NCBI GenBank assembly: GCA_021463195.1
Contig: JAJTXZ010000003.1
Span: 1 to 64,000 of the forward strand
Origin: Anaerolineae bacterium
GTDB lineage: Bacteria; Chloroflexota; Anaerolineae; UBA4142; SHND01
Direction of reading: 5' to 3'
DNA length: 64,000 bases
The position numbers and the translations under genes are program-made. This document shows, piece by piece, positions 2,701-8,063 of this stretch. The notes under the pieces were generated by a model. It did no database searches. It saw nothing but the letters and a program-made list of their open reading frames with translations, and had not been told where the DNA came from. The stretch's first letter is position 1; the number at the start of each line of letters is the position of its first letter.

Positions 2701-3525
2701 TCAAATAAATTCGTGTTCGCCTTGAATCGGTCCTTTGGCGCCGAACCAATAGAAAAAAATTATCGTGAGCGCGAGCAAAAAGATGAGCGCCGTGCCAACC
2801 CACATGATGAGTCCGGCGACCATTTGGTCGTCAAGAACCGAGATGCCCCAAATGCGCGGCGCTTGATCGTAAAATAAATAAATTGGCTGCGGCGCAAGGG
2901 TAATGAGCGCGCCCAAGCCCGTATTCAGCACGCTGGCGAGAAAAATGTACAACGCTTGCAACGGCAGCGGCGCGCGCGGCAAAAGCGGCGTCGGACTGAG
3001 GATCGGCATCCACAATAAGAATCCCGCAAAGGTCATGGTGAAATGTTCCAACAAATGAACTGGCGCCGCGTACAACGCCAAATCGTACAGCGCCGGAATA
3101 TGCCACACGGCAAACGTAAAATTGAAAATCAAAAACGCCCAAAAAGGGCGCGTTAATTTGCGGGCAATGCGGAGCAGCGTCGGAAAACGAGTCAAGGGAT
3201 TAAAGACCCAACCGGGCAAACCCAATAACATTAGCGGTGGCGCAATCAAGGTCAACAACACATGCTGAAGCATGTGCGCGCTGAAAAGATATTGGTCCGC
3301 CAGCGTTGAGAGCGGCGTAATGAGCGCGAGAACGAGCGCCAAGATACCCGTCGTCCAATACATCAAGTGCGATGAACGAATGGGCTGACTATCCGGAAAT
3401 TTCGCGCGCAGCGGGCCCGTGATTAGCAGATAGGCGCCGTGCAAAAGGAGGATGCTGAACCAAATGCCCGGCTCAAAAGCCCAGTTGGTCCACCAAAAAT
3501 CAGCGGGCGGATTATAAATATTCAC
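2701..3525 (-). CDS. ctaG: CtaG-family (caa3_CtaG) cytochrome c oxidase assembly protein
   Basis: A 274-residue multi-span membrane protein of the caa3_CtaG family, needed for assembly of caa3 oxidase, probably by copper delivery to CuB. This family is unrelated in fold to the Cox11 type of CtaG. About seven hydrophobic segments are visible. The histidine-bearing segment FSAHMLQHVLL (His84, His88) is typical of the family, followed by LIAPPLMLLGLP. It lies between the subunit IV fusion and ctaB in the same operon. Confidence 0.9.
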   Translation of the reverse strand: MNIYNPPADFWWTNWAFEPGIWFSILLLHGAYLLITGPLRAKFPDSQPIRSSHLMYWTTGILALVLALITPLSTLADQYLFSAHMLQHVLLTLIAPPLMLLGLPGWVFNPLTRFPTLLRIARKLTRPFWAFLIFNFTFAVWHIPALYDLALYAAPVHLLEHFTMTFAGFLLWMPILSPTPLLPRAPLPLQALYIFLASVLNTGLGALITLAPQPIYLFYDQAPRIWGISVLDDQMVAGLIMWVGTALIFLLALTIIFFYWFGAKGPIQGEHEFI

Positions 3526-3619: not shown

Positions 3620-4366
3620 TTACTTGATAACTACTGTGCCGTGCATGCCCAATTCAGCGTGTCCGGGAATGCTGCAGAAAAAGACGTATTCGCCCGGCGC
3701 CGGCGCTGTAAAATTGCCTTTGCCCGTCGAGCCCGCGAGCGCGTGCGCGACCACTTCCGCGGCAATGTTGGGGTCTTTCCACGGTTCGGCGGATTTATCT
3801 TTGGTGACGCCCGACAAAGTAAAATTATGTTCGACGCTGCCGCTATTGTTAATTGTGAGGCGGACGATTTGTCCCGAATTGGAATCGAATGCGTCCGGCT
3901 TGAAAAAATAATCGCCCGCTTCCATATTCAATGCCAACGGCGGACCCGCGTTCGGATTGCGCGTCGGGCGCGCGGCGGCTTCGCCACCGTGCGCGCCGGG
4001 CATCGCCTCGCGGACCGGAACGAGTTGTATCGGCGCCAAAAGCGCGACCATTGACAGCACGTAGGGCAGGGCAAAGACAAACACGCCGATGCCAAAAAAA
4101 CCCGCGTACAATTTGCTGTCAAATTTCAAGTGCATATAGTACAGGACGACGAGCAGCGCTTTTGCTACTGTCAATGCCAACAAGATTGGCACGCGTCCAA
4201 TCGTATTCTCAAAGAGCGTAGTCAGACCGATTTCAATCGCGGTCAAAATCCCCAGTATCACAAAAACCCCGATGTAATTGGGGTTGGCTTTTTTAATGCG
4301 CGCTTCTTCGGCGACCAAGTCGCTGGGATCGGTATGCGCGGAAGCCGTTACGTGTCCGTGTTCCAT
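3620..4366 (-). CDS. Cytochrome c oxidase subunit IV fused to a blue-copper cupredoxin domain
   Basis: A 248-residue fusion. Residues 31-110 hold three membrane spans with the look of prokaryotic oxidase subunit IV (NPNYIGVFVILGILTAIEIG, then the VLYYMHLKF stretch). A proline/glycine linker (115-145) leads to an outward-facing cupredoxin of about 100 residues. Its type-1 copper ligands are in place: His180 in VEHNFTL, Cys231 and His236 in FFCSIPGH, and Met241 in ELGM (C-x4-H-x4-M). The position between coxC and ctaG fits an oxidase subunit. The copper domain would sit at the outer face, where it could pass electrons to CuA or to the cytochrome c domain of CoxB (inference). Subunit IV is normally about 100 residues without this domain. 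Confidence 0.88.
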   Translation of the reverse strand: MEHGHVTASAHTDPSDLVAEEARIKKANPNYIGVFVILGILTAIEIGLTTLFENTIGRVPILLALTVAKALLVVLYYMHLKFDSKLYAGFFGIGVFVFALPYVLSMVALLAPIQLVPVREAMPGAHGGEAAARPTRNPNAGPPLALNMEAGDYFFKPDAFDSNSGQIVRLTINNSGSVEHNFTLSGVTKDKSAEPWKDPNIAAEVVAHALAGSTGKGNFTAPAPGEYVFFCSIPGHAELGMHGTVVIK

Positions 4367-4423: not shown

Positions 4424-5059
4424 TCAAATGAGATAAATAATGGTAAACAGCACGACCCACACGAGGTCAACAAAGTGCCAGTACAAGCCGCCCAATTCGA
4501 CGGCAAGATGATTGTGTTCACTGATGCCGCCGCGCAGCGCGCGAATAATCAACATCACAATCCAAATGATGCCGATCAAAACATGCGTTCCGTGAAAGCC
4601 GGTCAGGGCAAAAAAGGACGAGCTCCAGACATTCGTGTCGAACGTAATGCCATTGTTAATGAGCTCTATATATTCGAACGCTTGCCCGCCCAAAAACACA
4701 AGCCCCCAGAATGCGGTCGCAACCAAGAGGAAAATCATGCGCCCTTTTTTGGCGCGCTCGATCGCTTGCAGCGCCAACACCATTGTCAGACTGCTGAATA
4801 ACAGGATAAAGGTGTTGAACGAAGCGACGGCAAGGTCGAGATGTCCCGGCCCCTCTTCGAGCGAGACTTTGTCGCGATTGACCAAATAAGTCGCCATCAA
4901 CGCCGCAAAGAAAATAGATTCGGAGGCGATAAAGACCCACATGACCATTTTGCGATGGTCGAGTCCGGTGGAGGTCTCTACGTGCTCTGGAATCAATACG
5001 CCTTTGAGTGGCTCATCCGCGCGGCGCGCGCCCTGTTCCAATTTATCAACTGCTGCCAT
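4424..5059 (-). CDS. coxC: Cytochrome c oxidase subunit III
   Basis: A 211-residue heme-copper oxidase subunit III. It begins with a soluble stretch, then GLDHRKMVMWVFIASE, the usual first span with its conserved Glu, and later GFHGTHVLIG with the family histidines. About five spans are visible, the normal short bacterial form. It starts ten bases after the coxA stop, so the two are translated from one message. Confidence 0.95.
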   Translation of the reverse strand: MAAVDKLEQGARRADEPLKGVLIPEHVETSTGLDHRKMVMWVFIASESIFFAALMATYLVNRDKVSLEEGPGHLDLAVASFNTFILLFSSLTMVLALQAIERAKKGRMIFLLVATAFWGLVFLGGQAFEYIELINNGITFDTNVWSSSFFALTGFHGTHVLIGIIWIVMLIIRALRGGISEHNHLAVELGGLYWHFVDLVWVVLFTIIYLI

Positions 5060-5069
5060 GCTTCACCCC

Positions 5070-6959
5070 TTAGGAGGCGGGTTGAGAAACCCATCCAATG
5101 AGACCGATGAAAAAGACGACAATGCCAGTTACAAGTCCGATTGGCAATGACTGGAGCGCCATGCCCATACCGGAAATATCCAAAGCGAGCGGTCCGCCGT
5201 CAAAACCAAAAATGATGCCGATTGCGATGATGGATAAACCAATTGTCAAGACGAGCGGCCAAATGCTCGGACTCGGCAAATGCACCGTAGCTGTACCGCC
5301 GCCGGACAGGTCAACCGTTTTTGGATTGGACGCGAATTCGCCATGCGGACCGTATTTCGCGTCCCACAACGGGCGCGGGCTGTTCACCGGCAGCATCGAA
5401 GCAAAATTGTATGCTGGCGGCGGCGAAGAGGTCGCCCATTCCAAAGTTTGACCATCCCACGGGTCGTTGGTCGCGGTCGCCTTGTGGCGCAGACTTGTAA
5501 TGATGTTAATGACGAAAAACAGAACGCCAAACGCCACGAGATACGCGCCGATTGTTTCGATAAAGTTCCATACTTCCCAGCCCTGCGCGGCGCCGTAAGT
5601 ATAAATGCGGCGCGGCATCCCCAGCACACCCACATAGTGCATGATTAAAAATACGAGCGTCATGCCCACCATCGTGAACCAGAAATGCAGCTGTCCCAAT
5701 CTTTCATTCAAGAACCTGCCCGTCATTTTGGGGAACCAATAATAGGTGCCAGCGAATAACGCGAGAACCGCGCCCGCAAAGAGCGTGTAATGAAAGTGTC
5801 CGATGACGAAATAGGTGTCGGTCACTTGCCAATCCACCGGGACGGCGGCAAGAATTACGCCGCTGAGACCGCCGATCGTAAATTGACCGATAAAACCGGC
5901 GGCAAACAAGAATGCCGAGTTGATGCGCAGCGAACCGCGCCAAATGGTGGCGAGCCAATTAAAAATCTTGATGCCGGTCGGCACTGCGACGACAAAACTC
6001 ATTCCCGCGAAAACCGCGTCGGCGGCGGGCGACATGCCAACCGCGAACATGTGGTGCGCCCACACGGTGAAACTCACAAACGAGATGCCGGCGAACGCGA
6101 ACGCCATTGCCGCGTAACCGAAAATAGGTTTACGCGAATTCGTCGCTAGAATTTCAGAGATGATGCCGAATGGCGGCATGATCATGATATACACTTCGGG
6201 ATGTCCGAAAAACCAAAAGAGATGCTGCCACAACAAGGGGTCGCCGCCGTTATTCGGCAAATAAAAGGATGTCGAAAAAACGCGATCGAATAACAAGAGA
6301 AACATCGCGACGGAAACGCTGGGCAGCGCGAAAATGACGAGCAGCGAAGTGACGAGCGTGCCCCACACCAACAGCGGCAAGCGATTGATGGTCATGCCCG
6401 GCGCGCGCATATTAATAATCGTGACAATGAAATTTAAACTGCCGACGATGGATGAAATGCCCAAGAGTTGGAGCGAAAGAATCCAAAAATCAACGCCATG
6501 CGTCGGACTGTACGCTCGCTCGCTTAACGGCGCATAGCCAAACCAACCGGCATCCGGCGCGCCGCCGACGAGAAAACTTGAATACAATAACAATCCGCCG
6601 AATAGAAATAACCAATACCCCAGCGCGTTCAAACGCGGAAATGCCATATCGCGCGCGCCAATCATCAGCGGCACCAAATAGTTGCCAAAACCGCTATTCA
6701 AGGGCATGACGGCTAGGAAAATCATGGTGGTCCCGTGCATGGTGAAAAGCTCATTATAGAGATTCGGACCGACCAGCGTATTGCTTGCGGCGGCGAGCTG
6801 CGTGCGAATAATCAACGCTTCAATGCCGCCGACGATAAAAAAGATAACCGCAGTGATGAGGTACAAGATGCCGATGCGTTTGTGATCAACCGTCGTAATC
6901 CAGCTCATTAGACCTGTTGGCTGCGACGCACGCGGCAGCGCGAGAACATTGGTTGCCAT
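5070..6959 (-). CDS. coxA: Cytochrome c oxidase subunit I (A-type heme-copper oxidase)
   Basis: Catalytic subunit that reduces oxygen and pumps protons. The 629 residues start at the ATG at 6959, which follows GGAGAAGG; an upstream in-frame start at 6992 has no such site. Visible ligands and channel residues include MHGTTMIFL (low-spin heme His), GHPEVYIMIMP (CuB His, cross-linked Tyr and the D-channel Glu of the A family), AHHMFAVGM (CuB His pair) and GHFHYTLF (heme His pair). The C-terminus extends about 70 residues beyond the 12-span core and adds two hydrophobic segments, as in caa3-type subunit I. It follows coxB in the operon. Confidence 0.97.
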   Translation of the reverse strand: MATNVLALPRASQPTGLMSWITTVDHKRIGILYLITAVIFFIVGGIEALIIRTQLAAASNTLVGPNLYNELFTMHGTTMIFLAVMPLNSGFGNYLVPLMIGARDMAFPRLNALGYWLFLFGGLLLYSSFLVGGAPDAGWFGYAPLSERAYSPTHGVDFWILSLQLLGISSIVGSLNFIVTIINMRAPGMTINRLPLLVWGTLVTSLLVIFALPSVSVAMFLLLFDRVFSTSFYLPNNGGDPLLWQHLFWFFGHPEVYIMIMPPFGIISEILATNSRKPIFGYAAMAFAFAGISFVSFTVWAHHMFAVGMSPAADAVFAGMSFVVAVPTGIKIFNWLATIWRGSLRINSAFLFAAGFIGQFTIGGLSGVILAAVPVDWQVTDTYFVIGHFHYTLFAGAVLALFAGTYYWFPKMTGRFLNERLGQLHFWFTMVGMTLVFLIMHYVGVLGMPRRIYTYGAAQGWEVWNFIETIGAYLVAFGVLFFVINIITSLRHKATATNDPWDGQTLEWATSSPPPAYNFASMLPVNSPRPLWDAKYGPHGEFASNPKTVDLSGGGTATVHLPSPSIWPLVLTIGLSIIAIGIIFGFDGGPLALDISGMGMALQSLPIGLVTGIVVFFIGLIGWVSQPAS

Positions 6960-7034
6960 ACCTTCTCCTGAATGACGTTTCCCGACACACAACAGATAGC
7001 GGTTCGCGCGCTATCTGTTGCTGCAACATTTCTA

Positions 7035-8063
7035 TTATTTCAATGATTCCAAATACGCGACGAGCGCGTTCACTTCGTCCGGTGTCAGCTGCGGAATTTT
7101 CATAATGGTGCCTGGTTTAACCGCTTGAGGATTGCTCAGCCATTTGACCAAATTAGCGTGATCGAATTCGAGCAAACAACCGGCGATGCAGGTGCGCGAA
7201 GCGACATGCGTCAAATCGGGCCCAGTGACGCCTACCGCCGTTGTGCCTTGAATGGCATGACAGCCGATGCATGTAGTCTTGGGATTCAAAAAGATTTCTT
7301 TGCCGCGCGCCGCTTCACTGTTGGGCGCTGGCTCTGCCGCGGGCGTTTGAACATTATTGAGCCATGCTTCAAAATCGGCGGGACTCTGCACGATTACGCG
7401 AAAGAGCATATTGGCGTGCTGCGCGCCGCAGAATTCAGCGCACTGTCCGCTGTAGCTGCCCACCTTGTCCGTATAAAGCCAGGTCGTATTGGTGTATCCG
7501 GGCACCACATCCGTCTTGCCCATCAAACTGGGAATCCAAAAACTATGGATCACGTTATCCGATTTAAGCTCGACGTGTACCACTTGGCCGGCGGGAATAT
7601 GGATATCCGTCGCGTATTTCACCTTGCCGTCATTGTATTGGACTTCCCACCACCATTGATGTCCAACGACGCGGATGGGGATTCCTTGCCCGGGCGGAAA
7701 TTGCGGACCCACCTGACCCATCACATGGATCGTGAGACCAAAGACGCCGAGCAAAAGCAATGCCGGAATCGCGGTCCAGGTGATTTCTAATTTAGTGTTA
7801 CCGTGATTCTGTTCGGGATATTCGTCCGCTCTGCGCCGCTGATAGCGGAACACAAAAAAGATGAGCATCCCTTCGACAAAAATAAAAATTACGACGGAAA
7901 TCCAAAAGACCAGATGAAAGAGATCCGCCGTTAACTGCGCCGCCGGTGAAAACGGCGAAAGAATATCTTGGGGAGTCGCTGCGCAGCCCGCCAAGCCGAA
8001 TAGCGCCAAGGAGGCGCTGAGCGCCGCACCCAGCCGACTCCATTTGTTCCATAACAAACGCAT
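7035..8063 (-). CDS. coxB: Cytochrome c oxidase subunit II with C-terminal cytochrome c (caa3 type)
   Basis: Entry point for electrons into the oxidase. The 342 residues start at 8063 after GGGAGG. A lipoprotein signal ends in LAGC (Cys27), followed by two membrane spans (about 47-73 and 96-116). The outer cupredoxin domain holds the binuclear CuA site: His173, then C-A-E-F-C-G-A-Q-H-A-N-M (Cys208, Glu210, Cys212, His216, Met219). A cytochrome c domain follows with CIGCH (265-269) and a candidate axial Met321. An extra Cys pair (292, 296) lies inside the heme domain. It is the first gene of the operon. Confidence 0.96.
   Translation of the reverse strand: MRLLWNKWSRLGAALSASLALFGLAGCAATPQDILSPFSPAAQLTADLFHLVFWISVVIFIFVEGMLIFFVFRYQRRRADEYPEQNHGNTKLEITWTAIPALLLLGVFGLTIHVMGQVGPQFPPGQGIPIRVVGHQWWWEVQYNDGKVKYATDIHIPAGQVVHVELKSDNVIHSFWIPSLMGKTDVVPGYTNTTWLYTDKVGSYSGQCAEFCGAQHANMLFRVIVQSPADFEAWLNNVQTPAAEPAPNSEAARGKEIFLNPKTTCIGCHAIQGTTAVGVTGPDLTHVASRTCIAGCLLEFDHANLVKWLSNPQAVKPGTIMKIPQLTPDEVNALVAYLESLK

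Follow-up and report, generated by a model that had tools for sequence, protein, structure and literature searches.

Fusion of oxidase subunit IV to a type-1 cupredoxin domain in a caa3-type oxidase operon of uncultured Chloroflexota, and its putative role in electron entry

Introduction

Does a terminal oxidase that already carries a heme c on subunit II gain a further way in for electrons when a blue-copper domain is joined to its subunit IV? The question is raised by a gene at positions 3620-4366 on the minus strand of the window, which is the whole stretch of 64,000 nucleotides analyzed here (contig JAJTXZ010000003.1 of the Anaerolineae bacterium assembly GCA_021463195.1). We know of no A-type oxidase in which subunit IV has a redox role. 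In an enzyme already equipped with CuA and heme c, a conserved copper domain on this subunit would reveal a new route by which electrons enter a terminal oxidase, and a before-and-after comparison is available between a family with the fusion and a sister family without it. In addition, the locus provides a lead on how copper carriers function in members of the Chloroflexota in which a bc complex is present and alternative complex III (ACIII) is not detectable.

The Fused Gene and Its Operon

The fused gene is read from 4366 to 3620 as a single frame of 248 residues, from ATG to stop and with zero internal stops, and its assignment draws on the translation, Pfam matches and orthologues in five other genomes. 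Its subunit IV part (residues 29-112; 4031-4282, minus strand) has three hydrophobic spans by hydropathy, at about residues 29-53, 55-81 and 85-117, and scores above the cut-off of two profiles, COX4_pro of Pfam at residues 33-100 (44.2 bits against 28.9) and the caa3_sub_IV model of caa3-type subunit IV at residues 29-107 (40.0 bits against 37.25). A profile score above the curated cut-off, three spans and a gene encoded with those of subunits I-III all place this part in the COX4_pro family. A low-complexity linker of about 30 residues, delimited by the orthologue alignment (residues 113-143; 3938-4030, minus strand), leads to the cupredoxin domain (residues 144-248; 3623-3937, minus strand), which was delimited by a Copper-bind match in Pfam at residues 146-247 (31.1 bits, cut-off 21.2), by sequence and fold matches to auracyanins in the PDB and by the invariance of its ligands. 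The type-1 copper ligands are H180, C231, H236 and M241, with the spacing C-x4-H-x4-M, and this set of His, Cys, His and Met together with the profile score assigns the domain to the plastocyanin/azurin-type cupredoxins. Six assemblies agree on the fusion, which rules out an assembly or frame artefact, or chance, and the fusion of subunit IV to a cupredoxin is real.

The gene order in the window is coxB-coxA-coxC-IV/cupredoxin-ctaG-ctaB, all on the minus strand. Subunit II is encoded by coxB (7035-8063), which matches the COX2 and Cytochrom_C profiles and has an intact CuA motif, CAEFCGAQHANM, as well as a C-terminal cytochrome c whose CxxCH motif reads CIGCH. The coxA gene (5070-6992; COX1 and CtaD_CoxA) encodes subunit I with the A-type oxidase motifs GHPEV, WAHH and HFH, and its open reading frame as listed starts at a TTG codon, with the likely ATG further downstream. 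Subunit III is encoded by coxC (4424-5059; COX3), while ctaG (2701-3525; Caa3_CtaG) and ctaB (1752-2666; UbiA and heme o synthase equivalogs) encode a caa3-type oxidase assembly factor and a heme o synthase, respectively. The catalytic motifs of CoxA and the combination of CuA with a fused cytochrome c in CoxB identify the enzyme as a caa3-type member of the A family. The locus agrees with what the earlier note had described, namely three subunit IV-type spans running into a cupredoxin within one frame, the four ligands at exactly the positions given, a gene lying between coxC and ctaG on the same strand, and CuA with a fused cytochrome c on the CoxB of the same operon.

Fold of the Cupredoxin Domain

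The full-length model of the fused protein was of low confidence (pLDDT 56.5), and the cupredoxin domain modelled alone reached a moderate value (pLDDT 78.9). As modelled, the domain has an auracyanin-like fold. The first three Foldseek matches are three auracyanins, and the VIA-align comparisons gave Z 9.4 for auracyanin A (2aan; rmsd 2.6, 101 aligned) and Z 9.2 for the Roseiflexus auracyanin (6kol; rmsd 3.3, 106 aligned). Azurins and nitrite reductases of the three-domain type (NirK) lie within one Z unit of these matches. The best solved sequence relative found by phmmer is auracyanin B, tied with rusticyanin, so that auracyanins are nearest in both fold and sequence. Auracyanin and rusticyanin are electron carriers.

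Another role that has to be considered for a copper-binding domain at this place is the delivery or storage of copper for building CuA or CuB, instead of electron transfer. The gene adjoins ctaG, whose product is a proposed CuB factor, the copper of CuA is loaded on the same membrane side, and the domain gave a weak partial match, far below the cut-off, to the model of the copper-resistance cuproprotein CopI. However, its type-1 site is complete (Cys-His-His-Met) and has the CxxxxHxxxxM form typical of electron carriers, whereas PCuAC, a known CuA chaperone with a cupredoxin fold, has a Cys-free His/Met motif, H(M)x10Mx21HxM (PMC9145763). The invariant type-1 Cys, which the PCuAC motif lacks, and a SCO1 encoded elsewhere in the window's genome make a chaperone function less likely; besides, the same oxidase is encoded by relatives whose subunit IV is plain, and we consider a delivery or storage module quite improbable.

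Conservation of the Copper Site and the Linker

The four copper ligands are invariant across the aligned proteins (five orthologues), and the sixth fused protein likewise keeps an intact CxxxxHxxxxM motif. The identity of the cupredoxin domain among fused proteins is 48-77%, and this part of the protein changes more quickly than the subunit IV part. For the nearest pair, from which the ratios were taken, several other dS values being saturated, the dN/dS of the two halves was well below one (dN/dS values of 0.152/0.919 and 0.168/2.205). The faster change of the cupredoxin half would be expected if the domain had lost its function and were carried along as a passenger, but ligands that stay invariant in six species at such levels of domain identity, together with the low dN/dS, leave this explanation with hardly any credibility.

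The distal end of the linker, RPTxNPNAGPP (residues 133-143; window positions 3938-3970), is invariant among the orthologues, and the Gly/Ala stretch that precedes it varies in length. Such an invariant linker end is unusual for a flexible tether. The invariance of this motif next to a stretch of variable length hints that the cupredoxin domain may be docked rather than freely swinging.

A docked domain could also act as a local electron buffer, or as a structural or docking module that holds the donor complex as a supercomplex anchor, and not as a separate entry point for electrons. Supercomplexes of bc complexes and oxidases exist in bacteria (PMC9145763), the window's genome encodes a bc complex that includes a diheme cytochrome c, and a study of tethered copper nitrite reductase domains reports roles that go beyond simple partner fusion (PMC13324648). 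Nonetheless, the invariant copper ligands argue for redox chemistry that has been kept, and a buffer or docking module seems an unlikely role for the domain. The linker also bears on whether the gene might give two products, a subunit IV of the ordinary kind and a soluble cupredoxin set free by a post-translational cut. A low-complexity segment of about 30 residues would be a suitable place for such a cut, but no signal-peptidase-like site was seen by eye, the linker end is strictly conserved and stand-alone cupredoxins are already encoded in the same genomes, which makes cleavage very unlikely.

Distribution and Origin of the Fusion

The full-length fusion was found in 6/6 genomes of the window's family, which corresponds to one genus of uncultured Chloroflexota. 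The full-length orthologues of the five other assemblies lie in the same operon and show 56-76% identity, and a scan in which each species was represented by one genome retrieved full-length relatives at 53-76% in Chloroflexota metagenome-assembled genomes. All six fusion operons share the gene order, and each CoxB keeps CuA and the cytochrome c. The 14 further genomes examined from the order, which belong to a sister family, yielded no fusion, and in the sister operons that were inspected (L094-L097, L107 and L108) the corresponding place is taken by a plain subunit IV. None of these inspected sister operons has a cupredoxin gene beside the plain subunit IV, which speaks against an ancestral neighbouring cupredoxin gene as the source of the fusion.

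No further match spanning both parts was detected in a model search of 396 genomes from the class or among 400 genomes from the phylum, these being samples with a limited first look, so that rare independent fusions may occur elsewhere. The search for the domain pair in other genomes, which the earlier note had suggested, returned five further genomes of the window's genus and none elsewhere in the samples. Other subunit IV matches with long open frames were inspected and all lacked a cupredoxin, and the long cupredoxin frames considered as further fusions turned out to be lipoproteins. In another Chloroflexota genome, a frame of 511 aa (L033:1438-2970) has an auracyanin-like domain near its N-terminus and is possibly a fusion of the cupredoxin-nitrite reductase type.

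In a tree of 43 cupredoxin domains, whose deeper branching is weak, the six fused domains form one clade (support 99/98). This single clade, together with the restriction of the fusion to one genus in the samples, indicates that the copper domain was probably gained once, in this lineage. Most of the other cupredoxin domains in the tree follow a lipobox-like signal, according to a loose pattern test and reading of the sequences. Membrane lipoproteins make up most of the nearest stand-alone cupredoxins, and the fusion therefore looks like an anchor swap, in which a lipid-anchored (lipoprotein) cupredoxin was probably re-anchored on subunit IV. The window's genome encodes at least two stand-alone lipoprotein cupredoxins with lipobox-like signals (L139:5246-5770 and L140:3544-4113). 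For the cupredoxin at L140:3544-4113, each of the six genomes of the genus has a close orthologue, indicating that the fusion did not replace that pool, and it may serve as a mobile donor pool.

Respiratory Context and Electron Donors

The window's genome, which is 98% complete, encodes a bc-type complex in one cluster comprising a Rieske protein, a long cytochrome b and a diheme cytochrome c. In this cluster (L138:7350-11042; G000 contig 56), the cytochrome b has 672 aa with long N- and C-terminal extensions, and the diheme cytochrome c is membrane-anchored. A single COX1 over the cut-off and no bd oxidase were found in the window's genome, and therefore the fusion-bearing enzyme is probably its main terminal oxidase.

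The earlier note had proposed that two tethered carriers, one copper and one heme, would give the oxidase access to several donors, such as ACIII or a copper-protein pool. ActD, an ACIII-specific family, is absent from the window's genome and from five of the six fusion-bearing genomes overall. Besides, no ActB-type gene was found in the window's genome, and its sole NrfD protein, encoded outside any act cluster, follows a separate FeS protein of 307 aa that has a TAT-like start and is not ActB; the NrfD gene is near a contig end, and assembly gaps leave a small doubt on the absence of ACIII. With no ActD and with NrfD not beside ActB, ACIII is not supported as the donor, and a bc complex is present instead. 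As the genome gives no sign of the ACIII from which an auracyanin accepts electrons, the domain is named auracyanin-like and not auracyanin. The only fusion-bearing genome with an ActD/NrfD cluster is represented by L144 (G401 contig 58), with a second COX1 nearby.

The proposal of the earlier note consequently stands in part. A second tethered carrier is supported by inference from the combination of the CoxB heme c and the cupredoxin in six operons, the invariant ligands and the electron-carrier relatives of the domain. Among the donors suggested, a copper-protein pool is possible, given the lipoprotein cupredoxins encoded in the genome, and ACIII is not supported.

Proposed Mechanism

Altogether, we moderately favor a role of the domain as a tethered electron-entry copper domain on subunit IV of a caa3-type oxidase, which would act as a one-electron relay and would descend from a single gain of a lipoprotein cupredoxin. 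The auracyanin-like type-1 copper domain would be joined to the last transmembrane span of subunit IV, on the outer membrane face. The positive charges of the N-terminus and of loop 2 weakly favor a C-terminus outside, on the side of CuA, and this positive-inside signal, taken with the general topology of subunit IV, suggests that the C-terminus of the fused protein would face outward. The donor would be extracytoplasmic, being the diheme cytochrome c of the bc complex, a lipoprotein cupredoxin or another dehydrogenase, and the copper domain would pass electrons to the oxidase via the fused heme c or straight to CuA. The loading of the domain with copper, as well as the direction and the partners of electron transfer, we infer from the sequence.

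Since the oxidase already has a tethered heme c and its relatives work without the copper domain, the domain is not required for oxidase function generally. It is rather doubtful that the heme c on subunit II and the type-1 copper on subunit IV constitute two covalent electron-entry domains that would work as separate ports for different donors, and we put this forward tentatively.

Comparison With Known Systems

Blue-copper carriers fused to a small oxidase subunit are already known. Halocyanin serves a ba3 oxidase as redox partner, and some haloarchaea encode it as a fusion with subunit IIa, or CbaD (PMC3128077); this fusion protein of the Halobacterium and Haloarcula ba3 oxidases likewise puts a blue-copper carrier on a small accessory transmembrane subunit in an oxidase locus (PMC3128077; PMC8305020). 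However, that protein belongs to an archaeal B-type oxidase and has a one-helix subunit C-terminal to halocyanin, whereas the fusion described here belongs to an A-type oxidase, has the reverse order, with the three-span subunit IV followed by the cupredoxin, and occurs with a cytochrome c on CoxB as well. The CoxB of the window, with CuA and a fused cytochrome c, is one of those known from caa3 oxidases with a CoxB-cytochrome c fusion, and compared with these enzymes the extra carrier is copper, on subunit IV. Moreover, a study of Chloroflexi lists single frames in which COX IV occurs together with a C1-type cytochrome c (PKB63614.1 and PIQ26724.1; PMC8756737); these proteins, known here from the table entries, also have a redox carrier on subunit IV, but it is heme c and not type-1 copper.

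Auracyanins A and B of Chloroflexus are the closest solved proteins to the fused domain in fold and sequence. They are separate proteins linked to ACIII, whereas ACIII was not detectable in the window's genome. For AuraB, which is membrane-tethered, a role in respiration has been proposed (PMC3150298). No report of a cupredoxin fused to COX4 was found in the open-access papers searched. Compared with these systems, the novelty lies in the A-type oxidase, in subunit IV as the fusion partner and in the joint occurrence of heme c and type-1 copper on one enzyme.
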